A DNA stretch of 42,535 nt. Source: Acidobacteriota bacterium (GTDB taxonomy: Bacteria > Acidobacteriota > Thermoanaerobaculia > Gp7-AA8). Both the position numbers and the translations under genes were made by a program. The notes below the pieces were generated by a model. That model was not told the DNA's origin, did no database searches, and saw nothing but the letters and a program-made list of their open reading frames with translations. Where the stretch lies: positions 1 through 42,535 of the forward strand of contig JAJXWV010000032.1 in NCBI GenBank assembly GCA_021781455.1, in the 5' to 3' direction. The number at the start of each line of letters is the position of its first letter. The first letter of the stretch is position 1. Positions 5,648 to 28,665 of the stretch are shown here, in pieces.

Positions 5648-7045
5648 TCAGCTCACGTCGACGGGAACAGCCCTGGCGCGGAGCGGCTCGAACTCGGCGG
5701 TGAAATGGCGGAGGACCGGCGGTGCGGAAACGATCCGGTAACCCTTCAGCGCCCAGCTGATCTCCTTCACGGCCGCGGCGATCTCAACCACGTAATCGAT
5801 GTGCGATTGCGTGTACAGCCGACGGGGGATGGCCAGCCGGACCAGTTCCATCCCCGCCGCGGTCTCGTGACCGTCGGGATGAAGCCCGAACATCACCGTC
5901 CCGATCTCGCACGATCGAATGCCGCCCTCGAGATAGAGCGAATTGACCAGCGCGATGCCTGGATACTGCAGCGCCGGGATGTGCGGAAGGAGCGCCGCAG
6001 CATCGACGTAGACGGCGTGTCCGCCCGCGGGCTGCACGATGGGAATGCCCATGGCGAGAAACTTTTCGGCGAGGTACTCGATCGAGCGAATGCGATAGCG
6101 GAGGTAGTTCTCGTCGACGACCTCCACCAGTCCCTGCGCGATGGCCTCGAGGTCGTAGCCGGCGAGACCTCCGTACGTCGGGAAACCTTCGGTCAGGATG
6201 AGCAGGTTCCGGCACTTCTGGGCCAGCGCGTCGTCGTTCATCGCCAGGAAGCCGCCGATGTTCGCCAGGCCGTCCTTCTTCGCCGACATCAGGCATCCGT
6301 CGGCCAGCGAGAACATCTCCTGAGCGATCTCCTTCGGCGAGCGGTTGTGCTGACCGGCTTCGCGCTGCTTGATGAACCAGGCGTTCTCCGCGAAGCGGCA
6401 GGCATCGAGGAAGAAGGCCTTGCCGTAGCGGTCGCAGAGCGCGCGCACGGCGCGGATGTTCTCCAGCGATACGGGCTGCCCCCCGCCCGAGTTGTTCGTG
6501 ACCGTCAGCATGACCATGGCCACGCGTGCCCCCTCTTCGCCGCGGAGCACCGACTCGAGCGCCTCCAGGTGCATGTTGCCCTTGAACGGGTGGATGAATG
6601 CCGGCAGCCGCCCCTCAGGCATGACGAGGTCGCGCGCCTCGGCGCCCTCGTACTCGACGTTCGCCCGCGTCGTGTCGAAGTGGATGTTGTTGATGACGAC
6701 GTCGCCCGGCTGCAGCGTGGAATGGAAGAGGATGCGCTCGGCCGCACGCCCCTGATGCGTCGGGATGACGTGCTTGAACCCGGTCAGGTCGCGAACGACG
6801 CTGTCGAAGCGCTCGAATGAGCGCGAGCCGGCATACGACTCGTCGCCCTGCATCAGCGCGCCCCACTGCGCGGCCGACATCGCGCCCGTGCCGGAGTCGG
6901 TCAGCAGGTCGATCGTCACGTCGTGCGCGCGGAGCTTGAAGACGTTGTATCCCGCCTTCGCAAGCGCACGTTCACGCTCGGCTCGCGTCGTGAAACGGAG
7001 CGGCTCGACGGTTTTGATCCGGAACGGCTCGATGATGACACCCAT
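5648..7045 (-). CDS. tnaA: Tryptophanase (tryptophan indole-lyase)
   Basis: A 465-aa PLP-dependent beta-eliminating lyase that splits tryptophan to indole, pyruvate and ammonia in the cytoplasm. The PLP lysine is Lys257 in MSAKKDGLANIGG. Tyr71 (DESYAG) is the general-acid tyrosine of the family. Two positions separate it from tyrosine phenol-lyase: Asp124 in FDTTR (matching Asp137 of E. coli TnaA) and Ile in SCEIG, where phenol-lyases have the phenol-binding Arg. The start at 7045 follows AGGAGG at about 7-nt spacing; the frame is open to 7159 but has no ribosome site there. No TnaC-like leader peptide was seen upstream. A paralogue with phenol-lyase residues lies at 27250. Confidence 0.92.
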   Translation of the reverse strand: MGVIIEPFRIKTVEPLRFTTRAERERALAKAGYNVFKLRAHDVTIDLLTDSGTGAMSAAQWGALMQGDESYAGSRSFERFDSVVRDLTGFKHVIPTHQGRAAERILFHSTLQPGDVVINNIHFDTTRANVEYEGAEARDLVMPEGRLPAFIHPFKGNMHLEALESVLRGEEGARVAMVMLTVTNNSGGGQPVSLENIRAVRALCDRYGKAFFLDACRFAENAWFIKQREAGQHNRSPKEIAQEMFSLADGCLMSAKKDGLANIGGFLAMNDDALAQKCRNLLILTEGFPTYGGLAGYDLEAIAQGLVEVVDENYLRYRIRSIEYLAEKFLAMGIPIVQPAGGHAVYVDAAALLPHIPALQYPGIALVNSLYLEGGIRSCEIGTVMFGLHPDGHETAAGMELVRLAIPRRLYTQSHIDYVVEIAAAVKEISWALKGYRIVSAPPVLRHFTAEFEPLRARAVPVDVS

Positions 7046-7183
7046 GGTTGCGGCCTCCTGGTGACGCGCAACCGCCTCAGAACAAATGTGGAAGAGGCGC
7101 GGCGCCTTCAGCTCGCACCATGCCGAAAGAGCGGCACATGCGTCCGTGATCGTGGCCACACGGGATAGTGAGGCAAAGCCGCG

Positions 7184-16776: not shown

Positions 16777-17178
16777 TCAAACGTTTGCGAGCGCGATCTT
16801 CAGGCGCTTCTTCGCATCCTCGGCCACGGTGCGCAGAGTGTCGTTGCCGGCGACCTGCATCATCACTTCGGGATCGGCAGCGGCGACCACCGACTCGTCG
16901 TCCGTGACTTCATAGACGATCACATTGCAGGGCAGGAGCAGACCGATCTCGGGCTCGGCCAGCAGAGCTTTGTGGGCGAGCGGTGGATTGCAGGCGCCGA
17001 GGATGATGTAGCGCTTGAAGTCCACTCCGAGCTTCTCCTTCAACTTTTCCTTGATGTCGATTTCGGTGAGAACTCCGAAGCCCTGGTCCTTCAAGGCCGC
17101 ACGCGTCTTCTCGACGGCCTTGTCGTACGAAAGAGGGACCGTCTTCTTCATTCCGTACGCCATCGCGGTGGTCACCAT
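16777..17178 (-). CDS. DUF302-family protein
   Basis: 133 aa, starting at the ATG at 17178 preceded by GAGGAGG. The DUF302 core includes TRAALKDQGFGVLTEIDI and ILGACNPPLAHKALLAEPEI, the latter being the family's most typical segment with its single Cys. This is followed by GLLLPCNVIVYE. The role of DUF302 is not established; it is often found near heavy-metal, sulfur or redox genes. There is no signal peptide, so it is probably cytoplasmic. It diverges from a small membrane peptide gene and an OsmC-like gene. Confidence 0.88.
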   Translation of the reverse strand: MVTTAMAYGMKKTVPLSYDKAVEKTRAALKDQGFGVLTEIDIKEKLKEKLGVDFKRYIILGACNPPLAHKALLAEPEIGLLLPCNVIVYEVTDDESVVAAADPEVMMQVAGNDTLRTVAEDAKKRLKIALANV

Positions 17179-17224
17179 CACAGCCTCCTCGCGTCCGAGA
17201 ATATTACTCTATGATCGCGCAGTT

Positions 17225-17320
17225 ATGAATGCCATGGATATCCTGATGCTTGCCGGATTCACCCTGCTGTACGTCTTGCTCGTCGGCTTCGTCCTCCCCC
17301 GCCTCGGAGTGCCGACGTGA
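17225..17320 (+). CDS. 31-aa single-helix membrane peptide
   Basis: Reads MNAMDILMLAGFTLLYVL then VGFVLPRLGVPT: one membrane helix with a short polar tail containing PRLGVPT. TATGAT (17210-17215) lies 9 nt before the ATG, with no ribosome site, so the message is probably leaderless. The stop overlaps a possible GTG start of the OsmC-like gene, which suggests an operon. The size fits accessory subunits of membrane complexes, but no family is recognised. It could be missed by gene finders. Confidence 0.5.
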   Translation: MNAMDILMLAGFTLLYVLLVGFVLPRLGVPT

Positions 17321-17382
17321 GCCAGCGCAGCATGCCGCGGGCCGGCATCAAAGGACGACGACAGCGATCACAAGGAGCAGAG

Positions 17383-17796
17383 ATGAAATTCGACGTTTCC
17401 TTCAACGGCGGCATGCGCGTCGACGCGCACTTCCGCGGCCACACTGTTCACACCGACCAGCCCGTCGAGGTCGGCGGCACCGACACCGCGATGGCGCCGT
17501 TCGACCTCTTCCTCAGCTCGCTCGCGACATGCGCCGGCCTGTACGCGATGCGCTTCTGCGAGCAGCGCGCCATTTCTACGACCGGTCTCGCCGTGACTCT
17601 CGAGCCCATTCGGGAGCCGGAGGCGAAGAAGCTCGGCAAAATCCGGATCGAGCTCACCCTGCCCGAAGGGTTTCCGGAGAAATATCGAGAGGCGATTCAC
17701 CGCGCCGTCGATCACTGCGCCGTCAAGCGCGCGGTGCTCGATCCGCCAGAGTTCGAAATTGCCATGATCGAGGCGGGCGTCGAAGTCGGCGTGTAG
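17383..17796 (+). CDS. OsmC/Ohr-family protein
   Basis: 137 aa from the ATG at 17383, with GGAG upstream; the frame is also open to a GTG at 17317. The OsmC fold is shown by GGTDTAMAPFDLFLSSLATC (the Cys near residue 48 follows the hallmark LSSLATC) and the later CAVKRAVLDPPEFE. Family members reduce organic hydroperoxides with two cysteines; the second would be Cys in VDHCAVKR (about residue 110). This spacing is like YhfA/OsmC-like redox proteins rather than classical Ohr. It probably works in thiol or peroxide defence. Confidence 0.85.
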   Translation: MKFDVSFNGGMRVDAHFRGHTVHTDQPVEVGGTDTAMAPFDLFLSSLATCAGLYAMRFCEQRAISTTGLAVTLEPIREPEAKKLGKIRIELTLPEGFPEKYREAIHRAVDHCAVKRAVLDPPEFEIAMIEAGVEVGV

Positions 17797-17862: not shown

Positions 17863-19122
17863 TTAGAAGCCGAAGGAGTAGCCGAACTCGGCCTCCCACT
17901 CGTTCATGTTCAGGCGGATCTGCTGCTGGCCAGGAACCTCGAGCGGATTCGCGCCGACGACACTCTTCGACGGCGCGTACATCAGCGCAAAGTTGAACCG
18001 GCCGGGGCCCTGCATCTGGCGGCTGAAGCCGAAGGTGATGTGATCCTCGATCACGCCGGGTGCGAGGATGTTGAACAGCACTTCCGCAGAGGGAATCGGC
18101 TGGTCGCACTTCGAGTAACCGGCTCGCCACGTCCAGGTCTCGTTCTGCTTCCACTGCAGTCCGATCTTGTAGACGTTGATGTCACTCCAGCCGAAGCCCG
18201 CTCCTCCGGCACTTCCGAGCGGCGCCGCCATGATGTTCGGCAACAGCGGATTGCCGACGGCGAGGACGTCGCTGTAGTGAATGCGCTGGTAGTCGAGCGC
18301 GGTGGTCAGTCCCTCGACAGGCTTGTAGGCCAGGCCCGCCGACACGGACGACGGGATATCGAACCGCCCGCCTTGGGCGAACAGACCCGAATACGACTTG
18401 AAATCGCTCATGCGGATCTTCGGGCTGTAGGCCGCACCGATCGAAACCTTCGGCGTGAGCTGGCCGAGGTACCCGACACGAACGCCGATGCCGTATGAGG
18501 TGTCGTAACCGTTGTTGGTGAGGTTCTGCGCGTTGGACGAGAACATCGAGAAGGCCTGCAGGCCGCTGGCCTTGAAGCGCTGCCCGACCGCGACGGCGCT
18601 CAGGCCTAACGCCTGGTTCGCCGTGAGCTTGTGCGCATACGTCGCGGACAGGAACATCTGCGCGAGATCGACACCGGTGTGATCGGAGCCGTAGAACGTC
18701 GCCGTCCGGTAGTCGGAGTTCATCCCGCCATGGGCGACGAGATTGAAGGTCAGCGCGTTGTTCTCGTCGACGCGGTGGTTGTATCCGAAGGCCGGCATCG
18801 GGAAGTAGTCCGACTTGCTCGACACTTTTCCGGGCGTCAGACCGAAGGTTCCGGGAGCACCCGATGGATTTCCGACGACCGTGTAGTCGCGCTTCGGGCT
18901 GAACAGAGCCAGCGAGATGCTGTAGCCGCTATTGAGGAAAACCGAGGCAGCTGGATTCGTTTCGGCGTCGAGCGCGTCCTGCGCGATCGCCGTGGTTGCA
19001 CCGACCATCCCTTTGCTGGCAGCCCCCTGCCCATGCGTGAAATAGCCGTTCGTGGCATACAGCGGCGTCGCAAGCACAGCGATGGCCATCAGGGCCCCGA
19101 GCGGATTGTGCAGTCGGATCAT
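17863..19122 (-). CDS. FadL/OmpP1-family outer-membrane transport protein
   Basis: 419 aa from the ATG at 19122, with GAGGAGG upstream. A signal peptide (ALMAIAVLATPLYA) is cut just before the mature N-terminus TNGYFTHGQGAASKGM, which is the FadL plug signature. The remainder is beta-barrel-like, with alternating aromatic strands and a C-terminal aromatic (EFGYSFGF). FadL proteins pass hydrophobic compounds across the outer membrane. It is the last gene of the sulfur operon, 16 nt after the DsrC-like gene. Uptake of hydrophobic sulfur (S8 or polysulfide) is a reasonable idea but is inference; toluene- or fatty-acid-type uptake is the general family role. Confidence 0.88.
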   Translation of the reverse strand: MIRLHNPLGALMAIAVLATPLYATNGYFTHGQGAASKGMVGATTAIAQDALDAETNPAASVFLNSGYSISLALFSPKRDYTVVGNPSGAPGTFGLTPGKVSSKSDYFPMPAFGYNHRVDENNALTFNLVAHGGMNSDYRTATFYGSDHTGVDLAQMFLSATYAHKLTANQALGLSAVAVGQRFKASGLQAFSMFSSNAQNLTNNGYDTSYGIGVRVGYLGQLTPKVSIGAAYSPKIRMSDFKSYSGLFAQGGRFDIPSSVSAGLAYKPVEGLTTALDYQRIHYSDVLAVGNPLLPNIMAAPLGSAGGAGFGWSDINVYKIGLQWKQNETWTWRAGYSKCDQPIPSAEVLFNILAPGVIEDHITFGFSRQMQGPGRFNFALMYAPSKSVVGANPLEVPGQQQIRLNMNEWEAEFGYSFGF

Positions 19123-19138
19123 CGTCTCCTCCTCTTCA

Positions 19139-19387
19139 TCACTCCGGGACGCCCGCGAGGTTCGACAGAACTGTGCGCACATCTCCCGGAAAAAGCTCGT
19201 TCAATTTCGTGGCTGTAAAACCGCAGCATTTCAGCTCCGCGAGCATCGGCACCCGGCCGAAGCGCGCGGTAAGCTCGCGCCAGCAAGTGATCGCCTTCCA
19301 GTGCTCGCCGCTCAGCACGAGTCCCGCGCCAGCCGCCGATTCCTCGGCGATTTCCGGCGACCATTCGCTCGCGTCGGCTTTGTGCAT
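19139..19387 (-). CDS. DsrC/TusE-like sulfur-relay protein lacking the C-terminal cysteines
   Basis: 82 aa. It fits the DsrC/TusE core: EWSPEIAEESAAGAGLVLS, then GEHWKAITCWREL, P-x-L around residue 50, KLNELFP (about residue 63) and LAGVPE at the end. Normal TusE/DsrC ends LAGLPKP followed by a Cys that accepts sulfur; here the chain stops right after VPE, so that Cys and its partner are missing. It has other cysteines (ITCWRE and KCCGF). It lies 9 nt after the NrfD gene in a psr-like operon, so a sulfur-binding or regulatory task is likely, but its chemistry must differ. Confidence 0.65.
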   Translation of the reverse strand: MHKADASEWSPEIAEESAAGAGLVLSGEHWKAITCWRELTARFGRVPMLAELKCCGFTATKLNELFPGDVRTVLSNLAGVPE

Positions 19388-19396
19388 CGCCCCGCC

Positions 19397-20338
19397 TCAG
19401 ACTGCGGCCTGACCGGCAAGGACGAAGATCCACCGGAGGGCCAGGCCACCGATCAACAGAAGCACCGGCGCCAGCACCGCCGCGTTCACGTGGCGCCGCG
19501 ATTCGATCGTCTCCAGCGCCATCGGCATTCCGAGTCCCGCGATGACCACGACCGCCCAGAAGAACGCGGTGTAAGGGCCGCCGAAAAACAACGCAGCCGC
19601 GGCACGCCCGCGCTCACCGCCGTCGGACGCCAGGTCGATGAAGAAGATCGCCAGCGCTCCGATTTCCGCGGCCATGGCCATGACGTCCCACCGGCGCAGC
19701 TGGTCGCGCTCTTCGGACGTGGTCGGGAGCAGCATCGTCGCCGCCGCTCCGGCCGAGAATCCCGAGATCAGGAACAGCGGCGCCAGCCACATCGAGCTCC
19801 AGAGCGCACGGGCCGCCAGGGTGCCCAGCAGAATCCCGGTGTAAGCGCCGAGCGCAACGCCAAGAATGACGTTCAGCCGCTCCAACGCCTCGACGTTCCG
19901 GCGCGTCCATGACAGGACAGAGGAGAACGCCGGCGACAGACGTGGCCAGCGGCTGACCAGTGAGAGCGTCTCCTCGGCACTCAGGCGCGCCGAGCCGAGC
20001 CCCAGCGTGGCCGGGTAGATCAGCAGCAGAATCCACGCACCCCATGACATCGGCGACGTGATCCGCAGTGCCGTGTAGAAGCGGAACACGTGGAGTTCGA
20101 ATTCGAGATCCAGCAGGAGTGCCAGCATGCCCAGCGACAACAGGACCGGCGCTGCGAAGGGCAACAGCCGCAGGGCGCGTGATTGCCGCTCTTCCGGAAC
20201 CCGCCGCGAAAGCAGCGGAGCGATGATCATCAGCCCGGCCGTCATTCCGCCGAGGAAGAGGTACACCGCAATCTCCCAACCCCAGACGTGAATGCCGGAG
20301 CTGTCAAAGCCGCTTCTGAAAATCTCGGTCTCGTACAT
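19397..20338 (-). CDS. NrfD/PsrC-family membrane subunit (quinol-interacting)
   Basis: 313 aa with about eight membrane helices. It begins WGWEIAVYLFLGGMTAGLMI, the hallmark first helix of NrfD/PsrC, and later has SPMSWGAWILLLIYP, matching the family's SPMSWG motif. PsrC anchors the PsrAB catalytic pair and exchanges electrons with quinones. It lies downstream of the two YeeE genes, with a 112-nt gap before it. The ribosome site is weak. The placement completes a PsrABC-like respiratory complex, although the direction of electron flow (reductase or oxidase) cannot be read from the sequence. Confidence 0.88.
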   Translation of the reverse strand: MYETEIFRSGFDSSGIHVWGWEIAVYLFLGGMTAGLMIIAPLLSRRVPEERQSRALRLLPFAAPVLLSLGMLALLLDLEFELHVFRFYTALRITSPMSWGAWILLLIYPATLGLGSARLSAEETLSLVSRWPRLSPAFSSVLSWTRRNVEALERLNVILGVALGAYTGILLGTLAARALWSSMWLAPLFLISGFSAGAAATMLLPTTSEERDQLRRWDVMAMAAEIGALAIFFIDLASDGGERGRAAAALFFGGPYTAFFWAVVVIAGLGMPMALETIESRRHVNAAVLAPVLLLIGGLALRWIFVLAGQAAV

Positions 20339-20450
20339 CGTCGATCTTTCTTTCTTCTGGTCATCGGATCGGCCGGCAGCGAGCCACGGGCCCGCTCCGA
20401 ACGATCATTGGTAGGCGTCGAAGATGCGAATTTCCTCGGCTCGACCCACC

Positions 20451-21533
20451 TCAGGAGCTGCAGCCGCCGGCCTTCTTCTTCGGTTTCGAGAAGGTTGCGG
20501 CGCCTGCAACAGACGGAGGTGGAGGGGGCGGACCCCCGCTGGTCATTGCTTTGACCAGCGGATCGGCTTTCCATGCGGCGATCCCTCCGGCAAGCAGCCG
20601 CGCGTTCGGCGGAAGGCGGCTGGCGTCGCCGACGATCACGACGGCACGACCATCGTCCGGCAGGTCTGAAAGCGATGCGGCGCTGACGTTGATCGATCCC
20701 GGAACGCGGTCTTTCGCGTACAGAGCGGCATCGCGGACGTCGATGATCCGGATCGTCCAGGGCGCATCGACGACTGCGCGGGCCAGATCCGCGGCGCTGA
20801 TCGTGGACCGGGGCTGTTTCGCCATCACCTGCGTCGTGGGAACGGCGATGGTCACGAGAGCGACGACCGCGAGTGCGCTCACAGTTGCGAACGCATAGCG
20901 GCGCACTCGCGGCGGCCGCAGTGCGGGACGCGTTCCGCTCACGATCGCTTCGACCTTCTCCGCGCCGATGAATGCCAGGATCGCCATGACTGCCACAGCC
21001 GCGGCGAGCGCCTGGGGCGGAACCTTGATCACGTCGTACAGGAACCACGAGCCCCTGGCCCCGCTGTTGTGGAACTGCTGGAACTTCGGGATCTGCTGAA
21101 GCTCCGAATAGACGAAGGTCCCGGTGATCACGCCGAGCACGGTGAAGAGTCCGTCGAAGTTGCCGGAGGCGGCCGACACGATGGAAGTCCCGGGGCAGTA
21201 TCCGGAAACGATGAATCCGACACCGAGGACGAAGCCGCCGACGAGCATCGGCCAGATGAACGTGAAACTGGCGATCGACTCGGAAATGTCGCGCAGATTC
21301 GTCAGGCCCAGCCCGGAGGTGATCACCAGTCCGAGCATGGCCGTGACGATAGCCGTGAACATCACCTTGAACACGCGCATGTCGCGCAGATAGAACTGGG
21401 CGGCCAGCTTGTCGGCGCGCCCGAAAGCGGCACGTTCGAGGACAAAACCGAAGGCCATGCCGATCAGCACGGCCACGAGGAGTCCTTCCTGCCGCGCCGC
21501 GGTCGAAAGAGCGGTGAATGGAAAGAAGGTCAT
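20451..21533 (-). CDS. YeeE/YedE sulfur transporter half fused to a rhodanese-like domain without active-site Cys
   Basis: 360 aa from the ATG at 21533, which overlaps the previous stop (ATGA). The Sulf_transp membrane domain occupies residues about 10-205, with the conserved SGYCPGTSIVSA motif. A further helix at about 220-240 is followed by a rhodanese-like domain (about 245-330: IRIIDVRDAALYAKDRVPGS and LLAGGIAAWK). Where rhodaneses have the persulfide Cys loop, this reads VVIVGDASRLP, with no Cys. The tail has six prolines, then KPKKKAGGCSS, ending near a single Cys. It probably moves thiosulfate- or sulfide-derived sulfur across the inner membrane, paired with the other half-transporter. 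Confidence 0.85.
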   Translation of the reverse strand: MTFFPFTALSTAARQEGLLVAVLIGMAFGFVLERAAFGRADKLAAQFYLRDMRVFKVMFTAIVTAMLGLVITSGLGLTNLRDISESIASFTFIWPMLVGGFVLGVGFIVSGYCPGTSIVSAASGNFDGLFTVLGVITGTFVYSELQQIPKFQQFHNSGARGSWFLYDVIKVPPQALAAAVAVMAILAFIGAEKVEAIVSGTRPALRPPRVRRYAFATVSALAVVALVTIAVPTTQVMAKQPRSTISAADLARAVVDAPWTIRIIDVRDAALYAKDRVPGSINVSAASLSDLPDDGRAVVIVGDASRLPPNARLLAGGIAAWKADPLVKAMTSGGPPPPPPSVAGAATFSKPKKKAGGCSS

Positions 21534-22045
21534 GACCACTGTCTCCTCACAAACCAGGCGAATGCGTATCCGCCGGCGAAGACGGAAAGCATGAAGATCC
21601 AGGCTCCGACCGAAAGGACCGCGCCACCACTGAGCGCCTGCCCCGAGGTGCAGCCGCGGCCCGCGCGGGCGGCGAGGCCCATGAGCACGCCGCCGCTGAA
21701 GGCGAAGGCGAGGCGGACGGGAATGGTGGTCGCGGAGCCCCGGATGACCTTGGCGCCAAAGCGGCCGGCAGTCACGGCCCCCAGCGCTCCGCCGAGGAAA
21801 ACCCCGAGAACTTCGAAGACCAGCCAGTCATCGAGGACGTTGGATCGATCGCCTTTCGTCGCAGCGAGATTCGGGTTCGCAGCAACGTGCGCCGGCGCGA
21901 GCACCTCGGCAATGAAGACACCGATTCGATTCGCGGCACCCGATGCGCCGAGCTCCTTCCCCATGACGAGAAAGGTCGTCAGCAGCACGAGCCCGAGGGC
22001 GATGCCTGCCAGGTAGGGATTCCAGAATTTCTCTGCTCGTTCCAT
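21530..22045 (-). CDS. YeeE/YedE-family sulfur transporter, first half
   Basis: 171 aa from the ATG at 22045; a GTG at 22051 is the alternative. Four to five membrane helices are visible. The motif GRGCTSGQALSGGA (residues about 125-138) is the conserved cysteine motif of the YeeE/YedE (TsuA, PmpA/B) family, in which such cysteines pass thiosulfate or sulfide along the channel. A stop-start overlap with the next gene indicates that the two halves are made together and probably associate. Between it and the Fe-S gene is a 57-nt gap. Confidence 0.87.
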   Translation of the reverse strand: MERAEKFWNPYLAGIALGLVLLTTFLVMGKELGASGAANRIGVFIAEVLAPAHVAANPNLAATKGDRSNVLDDWLVFEVLGVFLGGALGAVTAGRFGAKVIRGSATTIPVRLAFAFSGGVLMGLAARAGRGCTSGQALSGGAVLSVGAWIFMLSVFAGGYAFAWFVRRQWS

Positions 22046-22102
22046 ATGCACTCACCCCGCCCCCTTCCCGCGTCGAGCGCGCTCAGAGGGCAAACGTCTC
22101 CT

Positions 22103-22657
22103 TCAGATCAGGAAGTACAGATTCGGTTTCGTTCCGGCTTCGGTGTCGATCTGCTTCCACTGGCGCGTGCGGAGCACCTTCGCGATGTCGCTGCCGGAAT
22201 CGTTGATGTCGCCGAACGCAAGAGATTGCGTCGGGCAGGCAGCAACGCAGGCCGGCTTCAATCCCTTGTCGACTCGATGCAGACAGAACGTGCACTTGTC
22301 GGCGTAGCCATCGGGATGGATGGAGCGCGCGCCGTAGGGACAGGAAGCGACGCACGCCTTGCAGCCTGTGCAGAGACTCCGATCGACGAGGACCACGCCG
22401 CCCTTTGCGTAGTAACTCGCGCCGGTCGGGCAGTTCGCTACGCATGCGGCATCGGTGCATTGCTCGCATCGCTCGCTGCGGATCTCCATGGCCAGGTCGG
22501 GAAACCTTCCGCGGGTTTCGGTCTCGATCCACGAGCGGAAGCTGGCGAGAGGCAAGGCGTTCTCTTCCTTGCAGGCAATGACACATGCGCTGCAGCCAAC
22601 GCACTTCCGCGTGTCGACCGCCATCGCATAACGTTTCCTGGAGAGGTTGAATCGCAT
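22103..22657 (-). CDS. PsrB/PhsB-like four-cluster ferredoxin subunit
   Basis: 184 aa with four cysteine sets: CVGCSACVIACKEEN (about 19-33), CEQCTDAACVANCPTGA (about 64-80), CTGCKACVASCPYGA (about 96-110) and CTFCLHRVDKG with PACVAACPTQSL after it. This is the usual layout for the electron-transfer subunit of Psr/Phs/Nrf/Ttr molybdoenzymes, carrying four [4Fe-4S] clusters. It starts 2 nt after the stop of the catalytic subunit gene. It should pass electrons between PsrA-like and NrfD-like subunits at the outer face of the inner membrane, co-exported with its partner. Confidence 0.92.
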   Translation of the reverse strand: MRFNLSRKRYAMAVDTRKCVGCSACVIACKEENALPLASFRSWIETETRGRFPDLAMEIRSERCEQCTDAACVANCPTGASYYAKGGVVLVDRSLCTGCKACVASCPYGARSIHPDGYADKCTFCLHRVDKGLKPACVAACPTQSLAFGDINDSGSDIAKVLRTRQWKQIDTEAGTKPNLYFLI

Positions 22658-22659
22658 CG

Positions 22660-24891
22660 TTAGGCCTCCGCCCGTAGCAAGCGGACGAAATTGACGTTCA
22701 TCCCGGTCCCACCCATGATCGGGTCGACCTCGAACTTGGTGACCAGTTCGTTGTCCGACGCGCCGCGTCCTCTGGCGAACTTCAGTCCCTTCGATCTGTG
22801 ACCCCAGCCGTGGATCATGTAGACGCAGTCGCCGCGGATGCGCTCGGTGACCTTGGCCTTGATCGGGGTGCTGCGTGCGCCGTCCTGGTTTTCGAGCACG
22901 ACCAGGTCCCCGCTCTTGAGAGGTTTGTCTTCGAAGCCGGCCAGAGCCCTCGCCGCGACGGTGTTGATCCAAAGCTCGTTCTCGCTGACGACCGATCCGA
23001 GCAGACGGTTGTTCGCCGTGCGGCCGAAGGTGTGCACCGCTGCCCGGCCGAAGAGGAGCCGGAACATCCCGTCGGGCGGTTGTGCGTGCGGGGTGTAGTT
23101 GGGGAGGGGATCGTATCCCGCCGCTTTGATCGTGCTGCTGACCAGCTCGATCTTCTTGCTCGGCGTATCGAAGGAGAGCGCCAGACCTTCTTCTTCGGAG
23201 ACCGGCTGACGTTTTCCAGTGATCACGCCCTGCGCGAGCAGTGCATAGATGTCCTGTCCGGCGGCCTTGGCACGCCACTGGATGAGCTCGAGAGGGTTCT
23301 TCCAGCCGAAGTAGTCGCCCAGGCCAAGGCGTACGCCGAGCTCACGTGCAATCCACCACCCGGGCTTCGACTCGTACATCGGTTCGACTGCCGGCTGGCG
23401 GATGGCGATGAAAGGCTCCTTGTACGCCGGCGCCCAGAGGTTGTCGTATCTCTCCAGGTAGGTCGATTCCGGAAGGACGACGTCGCTCCATCCCGTGATC
23501 TCCGAAGGGAGGACATCGACGGTGACGAGAAAATCGAGATCCTGAATCGCCTTCTCTGTCTCCTTCGGCGCTGGAAGCGACTGCAGCAGATCGGTGGCAT
23601 ACACCATCCATCCCTTGATCGGGTACGACGCCTTCCCGCGCAAGATCGCCGCGTCACGCATTCCGCAGGTCAGGACGTCTTCCGAGAGCCGATAGAGACT
23701 CGGATTCTCACGATCGGCGGCTGGACGCGGCGTGTATTCGGGTTTTTTTGCCGGATATGCCGGCAGATCCATCGAGCCCGGAAGGATGTAGCCTCCCCGT
23801 CGGCCCCACGAGCCGAGCAGGGCGGACAGAATCGCGACGGCGCGCAGGCGCTGCGTGTCATCTCCGTACCATGTGGTGTGGCGCCCCGGATGGATCAGCG
23901 AGGCGGGACGCGCGCCGGCGATGAATCGCGCGCTGTCGCGAATGACCTCCGGCTCGATCCCTGTGATCGGATAAGCCCACTCCGGCGTCTTGTCGGAGAC
24001 ATGCTTCGCGAGCTCGTCGAAGCCGGTGGCGTACTTCGCGATGTACTCGGCGTCGTAGCGCTTTTCGGCGACGATCACGTTCATCCAGGCAAGCAGCAGA
24101 GCGATGTCGGTTCCCGGCTTGATCGGCAGCCAGTACTTCGCTTTCGACGCAGCAACCGAGAAGCGCGGATCGACGACAACGAGCTCGGCGCCGCGGCCGA
24201 TTGCCGTCGCCAGCTCCTGTACCTGGGTGTTGTGCATGTTTTCGCCGAGGTGCGAGCCGATCAGCGTGATGCAGCGGGAGTTCTCGATGTCGATCGACTC
24301 GGGCGAGCCGAGTCCCTGACCGTAGGTGAGCCCGAAAGCGCCTTCCCGCGGTCCCATGCACTGAGCGTAGGCCGGCTCGGAGATGTTCGGCGTGCCATAC
24401 GCCTGCGCCAGCCGGATGAACCAGGAAGCACCAAAGCCGTGGATAAAAAGGCCCAGCGCTTCGGGGCCGTACTTCTTGCGGATGGCGTCCATGCGGCCGG
24501 CCGTCTCGTCGAGCGCCGCAGACCACGTCACCGGCTCAAACACCTGCGCGCCGCGCTTGCTGCGGCGGACCAGCGGCGTCTTCAGCCGATCCGGATCGTA
24601 AAGAAGCCCGACGCCGCCTTCGCCGCGCGGGCAGAGCCTTCCCTTGGAGAGGGGATGCGCGGGATTGCCCGTGATCTTGGTGACGCGCCCGTTCCTGACG
24701 TGCGCAAGAACGCCGCACTTCCAGAAGCACATCTCGCAGAAGGTCGGCACCACATGGTCGCCGTCGGTCTTCGGGTCGGGGATTTCGTGCGCCTGTAGGT
24801 TCCACCAGTTCGTCGTCAGGCCGGACGCCGCAACCGCCGCGGCTCCGCCGATTCCGCCGATCCTGATGAACTCCCGTCGTGTGAACGCCAT
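22660..24891 (-). CDS. PsrA/PhsA-like molybdopterin oxidoreductase (polysulfide/thiosulfate reductase type)
   Basis: 743 aa from the ATG at 24891, preceded by GGAGG. A Tat signal (TRREFIRIGGIGGAAAVAA) directs export of the folded enzyme. The N-terminal [4Fe-4S] motif is CEMCFWKCGV followed by CPRG. The likely Mo ligand is the Cys in YAQCMGPREG. Later molybdopterin-binding segments include LIGSHLGENMHNTQ, VVVDPRFSVAASKAKYW and HTFGRTANN. The set of catalytic, ferredoxin and NrfD subunits matches polysulfide, thiosulfate or tetrathionate reductases. The YeeE, DsrC-like and rhodanese-like neighbours point to a sulfur substrate. An arsenate or selenium compound cannot be excluded. Confidence 0.88.
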   Translation of the reverse strand: MAFTRREFIRIGGIGGAAAVAASGLTTNWWNLQAHEIPDPKTDGDHVVPTFCEMCFWKCGVLAHVRNGRVTKITGNPAHPLSKGRLCPRGEGGVGLLYDPDRLKTPLVRRSKRGAQVFEPVTWSAALDETAGRMDAIRKKYGPEALGLFIHGFGASWFIRLAQAYGTPNISEPAYAQCMGPREGAFGLTYGQGLGSPESIDIENSRCITLIGSHLGENMHNTQVQELATAIGRGAELVVVDPRFSVAASKAKYWLPIKPGTDIALLLAWMNVIVAEKRYDAEYIAKYATGFDELAKHVSDKTPEWAYPITGIEPEVIRDSARFIAGARPASLIHPGRHTTWYGDDTQRLRAVAILSALLGSWGRRGGYILPGSMDLPAYPAKKPEYTPRPAADRENPSLYRLSEDVLTCGMRDAAILRGKASYPIKGWMVYATDLLQSLPAPKETEKAIQDLDFLVTVDVLPSEITGWSDVVLPESTYLERYDNLWAPAYKEPFIAIRQPAVEPMYESKPGWWIARELGVRLGLGDYFGWKNPLELIQWRAKAAGQDIYALLAQGVITGKRQPVSEEEGLALSFDTPSKKIELVSSTIKAAGYDPLPNYTPHAQPPDGMFRLLFGRAAVHTFGRTANNRLLGSVVSENELWINTVAARALAGFEDKPLKSGDLVVLENQDGARSTPIKAKVTERIRGDCVYMIHGWGHRSKGLKFARGRGASDNELVTKFEVDPIMGGTGMNVNFVRLLRAEA

Positions 24892-24979
24892 CGGCACCTC
24901 CGAGATCGGAGATGGCAGATCGCAGGTCGCAGGTTCTCACCAGCGCTTGCGCCACCATCGACTCTCGGTGCCCGGGGAG

Positions 24980-25361: not shown

Positions 25362-26714
25362 TCAACCCAGCCGCAACTCCCGCATGCGCCGCCACAGCGT
25401 GGTCCGGCTCATGCCGAGGGCGCGGGCGGTTTCTTCGCGGTTCCAGTGGTGCGTGTCGAGGGCGGTGCGGATCGCGGCAGCCTCGTCGCTGTCGTTACCC
25501 GCTGCACGCGCAAGCTGCGGCTCGGAGGCTTCCACGACCTCGAGCGGCAGGTCGTCTTCGTGAATCGTCTGCCCCTTGACGACGGCCACCGCGTACTCGA
25601 TGGCATTCTCGAGCTCGCGGACGTTGCCGGGCCACGGGTAGCGGAGCATGGCCCGGATGGCCTCAGGTGCGAAGCGCAGCTCGCGGCCGTGCCGCGCTCC
25701 GACGCGCGCCAGCAGGTAATGAGCGAGCGGCTCGACGTCCTCTCGCCGCGTCCGCAGCGGCGGAATCTCGATCGGGACGACACGCAGCCGGTAATACAGA
25801 TCCTCGCGGAAACGTCCTTCGGCGATGGCCCGCCGCAGGTCGACGTTCGTGGCGGCGATGATGCGCGCATCCGCCGAGCGGGAGACGCTCTCTCCGATGC
25901 GCTCGAACGTCCGTTCCTGCAGGACGCGGAGGAGCTTGGCCTGGAGGTGCAGCGGCACGTCGCCGACTTCGTCGAGGAACAGAGTCCCGCCGGCGGCGTG
26001 CTCGAAACGGCCGACGCGATCGCGGACCGCGCCGGTAAACGAGCCGCGCACATGCCCGAACAGCTCCGCCTCCAGCAGCTCGCCGGGAAGAGCTGCGCAG
26101 TTCACGGCCACGAAGCGGCCACGACGGCGCGACGAGTTGGCGTGGATGGCACGCGCCAGCACTTCCTTTCCCGTGCCGCTCTCCCCGCTCAACAGCACGG
26201 TCGCATCGCTCGACTGCAGGTTCTGAACGAGCCCGAAGAGACGCACCATCGCCGCTGACCTCGTGACCATTCCAAAGAAGACCGTCGGCCCGGCCGTGCC
26301 GGCCAGTGGATCCTCCTCCGCGGGGCGCAGCACGATGACGTATTTGACGCGCGGGTCGCAGATGCCGAGATCGTCGGCGACGAAGGGTGCCGCGGTGAGG
26401 GAGACGATGCGCGTGGCTCCGTCGCCGGCCGGCATCGCCGCACGCCAGCCTTCGCGCATTTCACCGCGCTCCAGATCCTGCCGCAGCGTGCCGCCGGCTC
26501 CGAACAGCTCTTCGCCGAGGAGCTCGGCCACCGGATGGCCGACGACCGAGGAGGCCACTTCCGAGCCGGCGAATTTCCCGAGAAGCTCAGAGGCATGGAT
26601 GACACGGAAGTCGCGGTCGAGGCAGATCAGCACGCGGCCGATCGAGCAGAACACCGCGCTGACACCGACCAGCGCGGCGGCGGTGGACGGGGGCTCGCAC
26701 GCGACTGTGCTCAT
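25362..26714 (-). CDS. PAS-domain sigma-54-dependent transcriptional activator (Fis-type)
   Basis: 450 aa from the ATG at 26714. The N-terminal PAS-like domain (residues about 12-130) includes GRVLICLDRDFRVIHASELL. The AAA+ domain (about 150-375) has Walker A GESGTGKE and the sigma-54 contact loop as GSFTGA (a mild variant of GAFTGA). It also has Walker B GGTLFLDEVGDV and the usual RYPWPGNVRELENAIEYA. The C-terminal Fis helix-turn-helix is NREETARALGMSRTTLWRRM. There is no receiver domain, so it senses its own ligand or redox state through PAS. It lies just upstream of, and in the same direction as, the psr-like operon, which has a candidate -24/-12 promoter. Confidence 0.92.
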   Translation of the reverse strand: MSTVACEPPSTAAALVGVSAVFCSIGRVLICLDRDFRVIHASELLGKFAGSEVASSVVGHPVAELLGEELFGAGGTLRQDLERGEMREGWRAAMPAGDGATRIVSLTAAPFVADDLGICDPRVKYVIVLRPAEEDPLAGTAGPTVFFGMVTRSAAMVRLFGLVQNLQSSDATVLLSGESGTGKEVLARAIHANSSRRRGRFVAVNCAALPGELLEAELFGHVRGSFTGAVRDRVGRFEHAAGGTLFLDEVGDVPLHLQAKLLRVLQERTFERIGESVSRSADARIIAATNVDLRRAIAEGRFREDLYYRLRVVPIEIPPLRTRREDVEPLAHYLLARVGARHGRELRFAPEAIRAMLRYPWPGNVRELENAIEYAVAVVKGQTIHEDDLPLEVVEASEPQLARAAGNDSDEAAAIRTALDTHHWNREETARALGMSRTTLWRRMRELRLG

Positions 26715-26821
26715 GTCGTGATGATGCGGCTCGGGTTTCGGGGAGACCATCGGTCGCGTCGCGAGCGGGCGTGATACCGCACACAACCGGCGCCGGAACG
26801 ACAGCCCCGCCGAGCGATCCC

Positions 26822-27040
26822 TCAGCTCTGCGTTGCCGGGTGCTTGCCGCAGGTGCTGATCCCGATCAGCGAATAGAGCGGGCAGACGCCGGCCAGGCCG
26901 GTGACGAGCGGGAGGAACCCGATCAGGCCGAGCAGCGTCCTGGGCCCGAAGAAAACGAGCGAGATCCCTACGAGTCCGACGATCACCCGGATGACGCGAT
27001 CGATCGTTCCTTCGTTGTGGGCAAGGAGGTTTGTGGTCAT
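26822..27040 (-). CDS. DUF2892-family (YgaP-like) inner-membrane protein
   Basis: 72 aa from the ATG at 27040. It begins NEGTIDRVIRVIVGLVGISL, then has a second helix GLIGFLPLVTGLAGVCPLYS and ends GISTCGKHP. The NxGxxDR start and CPLY...G-STC pattern define DUF2892. In YgaP it follows a rhodanese domain and helps export sulfur-derived products. Its position directly upstream of the sulfur activator, on the same strand, therefore fits a sulfur role, although it is a general family. The ribosome site is weak (GGGGA). Confidence 0.88.
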   Translation of the reverse strand: MTTNLLAHNEGTIDRVIRVIVGLVGISLVFFGPRTLLGLIGFLPLVTGLAGVCPLYSLIGISTCGKHPATQS

Positions 27041-27052
27041 GGCGTTTTCCCC

Positions 27053-27130
27053 GGTCCGGGCTGTTGGCTCTTGGCTCGTGGGGGAATGCGTCCTGGAGTC
27101 GTCCCAAGAGCCGACAGCCACCAGCCCGGA
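27053..27130. repeat. Inverted arms of 7-nt tandem repeat GGCTSTT
   Basis: The left arm is GGCTGTT, GGCTCTT, GGCTCGT, GGG (27053-27083). The right arm reads CCCAAGAGCCGACAGCC, then ACCAGCCCGGA (27103-27130). The unit is the same as in the element at 15344-15407. It lies between divergent genes (DUF2892 and tyrosine phenol-lyase), so it is not a simple terminator. Confidence 0.7.
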
Positions 27131-27138
27131 CGGCATGA

Positions 27139-28665
<1,527 letters not shown>

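Follow-up and report, generated by a model that had tools for sequence, protein, structure and literature searches.

A split YeeE transporter with a rhodanese-like domain ending in Gly-Cys is encoded beside PsrABC-type reductases in several bacterial phyla

By what route sulfane sulfur leaves periplasmic enzymes and crosses YeeE-type pores is not yet settled in the study of sulfur metabolism. YedE1E2, a pore made of two halves with one essential cysteine in each, takes in zero-valent sulfur and was not seen to export it (PMC10812762), and it has been proposed that a cysteine of SoxY passes sulfur to the SoxT channel (PMC11582611). The substrates of the Psr and Phs reductases cannot be distinguished from their sequences (PMC13047784). 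We analysed a stretch of 42,535 nucleotides (hereafter, the window) from an Acidobacteriota bacterium (Thermoanaerobaculia, Gp7-AA8; contig JAJXWV010000032.1 of assembly GCA_021781455.1), which contains at positions 17863-24897 a seven-gene operon combining a PsrABC-type molybdoenzyme with a split YeeE transporter. One of the transporter halves carries a rhodanese-like domain that lacks the catalytic cysteine and ends in a tail with a Gly-Cys pair.

The seven genes, all on the minus strand, have open frames and are closely packed, their spacing ranging from a 4-bp overlap (between the two YeeE halves) to 112 bp:

22660..24897, minus strand: psrA, molybdopterin oxidoreductase of the polysulfide/thiosulfate reductase type, exported by twin-arginine translocation (Tat), 743-745 residues (Pfam Molybdopterin, 5e-37)
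22103..22657, minus strand: psrB, 4Fe-4S ferredoxin-like subunit, 184 residues (Pfam Fer4_11, 1e-21; NrfC/DsrO/TtrB models)
21530..22045, minus strand: YeeE half 1, PmpA/C-half type, pore cysteine in RGCTSGQ (Pfam Sulf_transp, model positions 173-309)
20451..21533, minus strand: YeeE half 2 with the rhodanese-like domain, PmpB/N-half type, pore Cys113 in GYCPGT (Pfam)
about 20451..20552 (approximate), minus strand: predicted disordered Pro/Lys/Gly tail of the preceding protein with the terminal Gly-Cys (the proposed arm)
19397..20338, minus strand: psrC, NrfD-type quinone-interacting membrane subunit, 313 residues (Pfam NrfD, 1e-43)
19139..19387, minus strand: DsrC-like protein, 82 residues (Pfam DsrC, 2e-9, 38 bits for a cut-off of 24.9)
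17863..19122, minus strand: FadL/TodX-type outer-membrane porin with a signal peptide, 419 residues (Pfam Toluene_X/FadL, 4e-14, 52.4 bits for a cut-off of 29.7)

The open frames and the Pfam matches bore out the original prediction of seven tightly spaced minus-strand genes. The analysis also supported the view that one genetic module unites an exported Psr-type molybdoenzyme (with Tat motif and molybdenum-ligand cysteine), a sulfur transporter of the inner membrane and a porin of the FadL type. The rhodanese-like element that had been listed with them is present as well, not as a separate gene but as the C-terminal part of the protein that contains YeeE half 2.

The two YeeE halves matched the C-half and the N-half of the Sulf_transp model (4e-20 and 2e-16) and displayed its signature motifs. 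From their position in the family, the pore cysteines correspond to the essential cysteines of YedE1E2 (PMC10812762) and TsuA (PMC11582611). A selenium-transport reading of half 2 was rejected, as the selenium transporter model gave 43 bits, far under its cut-off of 200. The rhodanese-like domain (Pfam Rhodanese, 2e-6) is joined to half 2 through one additional transmembrane helix. The resulting protein of 360 residues contains just two cysteines: Cys113 belongs to the pore motif and Cys358 to the tail, which ends in KPKKKAGGCSS.

We searched for PsrA in 1,087 genomes of four phyla (396, 296, 200 and 195 genomes; each set takes its phylum name, by inference, from the named locus with which its search was started) and retrieved some 85 neighbourhoods. 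Both YeeE halves were found near PsrA at 68 loci, 62 of which also encoded the rhodanese-like domain, fused or in the next gene. Because this core of PsrABC, split YeeE and rhodanese-like domain recurs at 62 loci in four phyla, the gene set is far beyond chance. The complete seven-gene order, which was to be sought in other genomes, was found in the best full match to the window, L050 (on the same contig as L032, Centralia_MAG_134, in the family of the window genome), together with a sigma-54 regulator. In many lineages the domain is fused to YeeE half 2, and many Bacteroidota-type loci encode it as a protein of its own with a membrane anchor. A contig scan with the fused protein returned relatives labelled Acidobacteria, Thermoanaerobaculia, Deltaproteobacteria, Gemmatimonadota, Ignavibacteriales and Bacteroidetes. 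On the PsrA tree, the YeeE-linked forms fell mostly in one clade of 76 rows (Shimodaira-Hasegawa-like approximate likelihood-ratio test, SH-aLRT, 99), with occasional losses. A second, deeper PsrA group with YeeE halves, in which the rhodanese arm was not detected, comprised L128-L132 and the second copies in L109 and L113.

The sequence features on which the proposed function depends were strictly conserved. Each of the two pore cysteines was present in 63 of 63 cases in the module loci. All 63 intact rhodanese-like proteins had a cysteine among their last three residues, always directly after a glycine (the L085 frame, which ends early within the domain, was excluded), and alignment A1 showed an invariant G359-C360 (open-reading-frame numbering). 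The tails ended in sequences such as KKKKKEGC, KKGGGC, GGGGCSG and, in Myxococcota-type members, GGGGCGG. This Gly-Cys ending, the best conserved peculiarity of the set, had no place in the original prediction. In 43 of the 63 proteins the tail cysteine was the only one in the final 170 residues. In the other proteins of the same loci, the last six residues rarely included a cysteine (PsrC, 0/75; YeeE1, 0/76; YeeE2 without the domain, 0/45; PsrB, 1/98; PsrA, 5/99). Lipobox, MYXO-CTERM and GlyGly-CTERM signals require an N-terminal cysteine or a transmembrane helix after the cysteine; neither is present here, and a role as a sorting or lipid signal was rejected.

The domain itself is predicted to have a rhodanese fold. 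Pfam Rhodanese matched the stand-alone L038 protein at 2e-14, and AlphaFold2 gave, for both this protein and that of the window, a confident rhodanese domain followed by a disordered tail (predicted local distance difference test score, pLDDT, below 50). Foldseek matched the L038 domain with rhodaneses (7.7e-8, 96 matches below 0.001), and the window model with the same family, more weakly. A profile search indicated the position at which the solved canonical rhodaneses place their catalytic cysteine. The window protein has no cysteine there, and only 2 of 66 domains do, the other 64 having Ser, Gly, Ala, Asp or other residues. The mean net charge before and after the anchor helix was +3.4 and +0.5 for the separate proteins (pattern found in 26 of 32) and +3.5 and +0.5 for the fused ones (18 of 22). 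Since these charges obey the positive-inside rule, the domain is predicted to be periplasmic, which would give the arm and PsrA a common compartment. The original prediction of a cytoplasmic sulfur carrier is thus at odds with the predicted location of the domain and with the loss of the catalytic cysteine in 64 of 66 cases. In one group (L125:10318-10944, L126:7576-8199 and L127:9664-10935) the dead rhodanese contained a haem-like CxxCH motif (e.g. CGTCH) before an EGC end, which hints at a haem-bearing version.

A YeeE1-YeeE2-rhodanese set ending in GGC was also found after an octaheme tetrathionate reductase, at six loci in all, including:

L057:3059-8894, minus strand: octaheme tetrathionate reductase (TIGR04315, 597 bits), accompanied by a YeeE1-YeeE2-rhodanese(GGC) pair that belongs to it
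L034:1-3043, plus strand: C-terminal fragment of an octaheme tetrathionate reductase, likewise accompanied by a YeeE1-YeeE2-rhodanese(GGC) pair

The four other clusters (L143, L146, L149 and L151), all GGC-ended, came from a search for the octaheme enzyme in the phylum, for which 20 loci were fetched. The L057 cluster additionally encodes a FadL protein and a DsrC with a cysteine in its C-terminal region (PPQCNHEP), and L146 also contains a FadL gene. The cultured Gemmatirosa kalamazoonensis has the YeeE-arm part with no PsrA nearby. Because of these octaheme clusters and of Gemmatirosa, the arm appears, as judged from gene content, to travel with YeeE and to plug into differing periplasmic sulfur enzymes.

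The closest solved relative of PsrA was Thermus thermophilus Psr (2vpw, 707 bits), in which the molybdenum-ligand cysteine aligned with that of the window protein; the ArrA and TtrA models matched PsrA far less well than Psr did. This cysteine was found in 63 of 63 module loci and a Tat-like motif in 62 of 63, the single exception being truncated at a contig end. In the window, a start at the ATG at 24891 yields the Tat motif TRREF. The B (4Fe-4S) and C (NrfD) subunits are encoded in the same operon as psrA; a sequence search with PsrC retrieved no PDB chain at E 0.001. The putative activity of the complex would be to reduce polysulfide or thiosulfate at the expense of quinol. A plasmid search with PsrA returned only PhsA of Enterobacteriaceae, with about 32% identity. 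At L069 (G222, in the family of the window genome), psrA appeared to be divided between two frames that overlap, and psrB and psrC had no YeeE next to them, as would be expected from a decaying copy or an assembly frameshift.

We propose that PsrABC would act on sulfane sulfur (polysulfide, S8-derived sulfur or thiosulfate) at its periplasmic molybdenum site and that the two YeeE halves would build one transport pore, each contributing one essential cysteine. The rhodanese-like domain, whether fused or encoded by the adjacent gene, would have given up catalysis to become a periplasmic scaffold for the flexible tail. The terminal Gly-Cys would then hold sulfur as a persulfide and swing between PsrA and the YeeE pore, as the SoxY arm does among the Sox enzymes. 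FadL, finally, may be the outer-membrane entry for sulfur that is hydrophobic or dissolves poorly. The idea of a swinging arm follows from the handover from SoxY to SoxT already suggested (PMC11582611), and we give the handover between PsrA and the YeeE pore an even chance of being correct.

Its main rival, which we consider unlikely, is that the Gly-Cys tail serves the enzyme only, capturing periplasmic polysulfide sulfur and presenting it to PsrA or to the octaheme reductase, while YeeE would be an anchor or belong to a separate assimilation route. Such a function would be similar to that of Sud, described as the periplasmic rhodanese-fold polysulfide carrier for Psr in Wolinella (Klimmek 1998, cited in PMC10092268 and PMC3397948). 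The Sud structure (1qxn) matched profile A2, and a separate membrane-anchored protein, as in many Bacteroidota-type loci, would suit this role. However, the many lineages in which the domain is fused to YeeE half 2 and the strict presence of both pore cysteines argue against it, as does the finding of the YeeE-arm module beside an octaheme reductase or no reductase at all, the ties of the arm to YeeE being at least as strong as those to PsrA. It is quite improbable that the system works in the oxidative direction or on another substrate, PsrABC oxidising sulfide or handling thiosulfate, tetrathionate, selenium or arsenic species and the arm serving export or detoxification instead of import. 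The limits of substrate prediction for Psr and Phs (PMC13047784) and the weak selenium transporter match of YeeE half 2 leave room for this. Yet PsrA is nearest to T. thermophilus Psr, with far lower scores for ArrA and TtrA, YedE1E2 showed import but no export of zero-valent sulfur (PMC10812762), and the octaheme partner belongs to the tetrathionate-reductase family. A still more improbable explanation is that the tail cysteine is not a carrier but a redox sensor, a disulfide anchor or a plug gating YeeE. One can reason that a lone cysteine near a pore could make a reversible disulfide and that a Lys-rich tail could bind the membrane or the pore. Yet the glycine preceding the cysteine in 63 of 63 proteins, the resemblance of the Myxococcota-type GGGGCGG ends to the SoxY carrier tip, and the recurrence beside two unrelated sulfur reductases are better suited to carriage.

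The part played by FadL has to be weighed separately. The window protein matched TbuX, CymD and TodX chains of the PDB (about 50 bits), and it is one of only three FadL-family genes in the genome. Of the 68 PsrA loci linked to YeeE, 20 had a FadL gene on the same strand, and these 20 were spread over three phyla; none of the 21 unlinked loci had one (Fisher p 0.0026, or 0.008 with loci of at least 12 kb, uncorrected for kinship); thus, homologous operons do not always lack FadL. From this context and from the preference of FadL proteins for hydrophobic compounds, we infer that the porin may take up hydrophobic sulfur. Alternatively, it could be a bystander importing fatty acids or aromatics and placed there by chance of gene order, which we regard as somewhat unlikely. 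That only 20 of 68 linked loci have the gene, that FadL proteins usually transport hydrocarbons and fatty acids, and that the open-access literature searched yielded no link between FadL and sulfur uptake would fit a bystander. The absence of FadL from all 21 unlinked loci would not, nor would the short gap to the nearest operon gene (132 bp or less in 17 of 20 cases) or the presence of FadL in one octaheme cluster lacking PsrA. Moreover, the FadL proteins form at least three well-separated clades, and the PsrA tree shows 11 switches between having and lacking FadL, so that the association was gained or lost repeatedly.

The DsrC-like protein did not live up to its predicted role as a sulfur carrier. 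A penultimate C-terminal cysteine is strictly conserved in, and defining for, DsrC and TusE (PMC3397948), and it was retained in all 27 canonical DsrC homologues fetched from the phylum (L005-L031). Alignment showed that the C-terminal arm with this cysteine is absent from the DsrC-like proteins of the window and of L050, and the window protein scored 26.9 bits with NCBIfam TIGR03342, under the cut-off of 53.5. For want of this cysteine, the reading as a functional DsrC carrier was rejected. Because the arm cysteine is lost, because the gene recurs in a psr operon only in L050, in the family of the window genome, and because the host genome gave no match to TusA or DsrA (one DsrE was found), a DsrC-style relay is unlikely. 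The earlier suggestion of a route ending in reduced sulfur inside the cell finds no TusA or DsrA in this genome to sustain it.

Several observations weigh against the handover as a whole, among them this lack of cytoplasmic partners. FadL is missing from most relatives. PsrABC occurs without the module (L069, L095-L100) and the YeeE-arm part occurs without PsrA (Gemmatirosa), and the two are therefore separable. The AlphaFold2 models of the window and L038 proteins were built on alignments of only 28-29 sequences. Two proteins (L086 and L088) keep a cysteine at the rhodanese site, and the Myxococcota-type members have two more cysteines inside the domain.

The broader view, that these proteins represent a widespread, unrecognised class of periplasmic carriers, is possible but rather doubtful. 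Such carriers would consist of a non-catalytic rhodanese scaffold with a SoxY-like Gly-Cys arm in or next to a YeeE pore, and would bring sulfane sulfur from two unrelated respiratory reductases into an importer, FadL supplying elemental sulfur; no route for solid S8 through the outer membrane has yet been established. If this view is true, SoxY-like arms have evolved again on a different fold. A dead rhodanese with a terminal Gly-Cys beside a split YeeE would then be a sequence marker of sulfur respiration or import, usable in uncultured Acidobacteriota, Gemmatimonadota, Bacteroidota/Ignavibacteria and Myxococcota-type bacteria. Because one pore half is fused to a single-cysteine arm, the handover can be tested by one point mutation.

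One further gene may be connected with the operon:

open frame 25362..27179 (true start inside the frame), minus strand: sigma-54-type regulator, upstream (Pfam Sigma54_activat, HTH_8)

A regulator of the same subfamily (more than 430 bits) was present at 11 module loci. Upstream of psrA, the best -24/-12 site of the window was no better than those of shuffled sequences (0.12). Since no significant sigma-54 site was found, it is the position of the regulator gene that suggests regulation. A YgaP-like small transmembrane-domain protein (PF11127; 26822-27136, minus strand) was noted within the stretch of the regulator, and the rhodanese that usually accompanies such proteins is missing. The operon is bordered by OsmC-like (17317-17796, plus strand) and DUF302 (16777-17181, minus strand) genes; one or both were also seen near several relatives (L083, L084, L118, L095), and a loose association is possible. 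The window also encodes two beta-eliminating lyases of the tryptophanase/tyrosine phenol-lyase type (PF01212), at 5648-7159 (minus strand) and 27250-28665 (plus strand).

The component families of this system are already known; the novelty is in the gene combination and in the dead rhodanese with its Gly-Cys arm, neither of which was found described in the open-access literature searched, a scope outside which most subscription journals lie. In Desulfurivibrio dismutans, Psr is also encoded with a secreted rhodanese, and a porin lies beside YeeE elsewhere in the genome; there, however, the rhodanese has three domains and a signal peptide, and the portions consulted of the report (PMC12142623) do not mention a split-YeeE fusion or a Gly-Cys arm. 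The 82-residue protein of the window matches the DsrC domain, as DsrC and TusE do, but is devoid of their arm and penultimate cysteine. As in the PsrABC and PhsABC of Thermus thermophilus, Wolinella and Salmonella, a Tat-exported molybdenum subunit with a cysteine ligand is accompanied by a 4Fe-4S subunit and an NrfD-type membrane subunit, but here PsrA belongs to a large distinct clade and is encoded with a split YeeE, a dead rhodanese with a cysteine arm and often FadL. Sud, a soluble protein, has a periplasmic rhodanese fold serving a Psr enzyme, as is proposed for our domain. Sud retains the cysteine of the rhodanese loop, whereas here the loop cysteine is gone and the conserved one lies at the C-terminal end of a protein bound to the membrane. 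Like SoxY, the predicted periplasmic protein has a Gly-rich C-terminal arm with one cysteine, with GGCGG-like ends in some relatives, and this cysteine would be a putative sulfur-binding site; unlike SoxY, the protein is membrane-anchored and no SoxZ-type partner was seen in the operon. Because of its rhodanese fold and because no SoxY Pfam match was found in it, we propose that it may work like SoxY, not that it is one. PmpAB and YedE1E2 similarly consist of two half-size proteins with one conserved pore cysteine each, but are linked to a persulfide dioxygenase rather than to a respiratory reductase. In the present system, half 2 has an extra transmembrane helix and a predicted periplasmic dead rhodanese with a cysteine tail, or is followed by the gene for such a protein. 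The new element is a membrane-bound candidate carrier attached to the pore itself.

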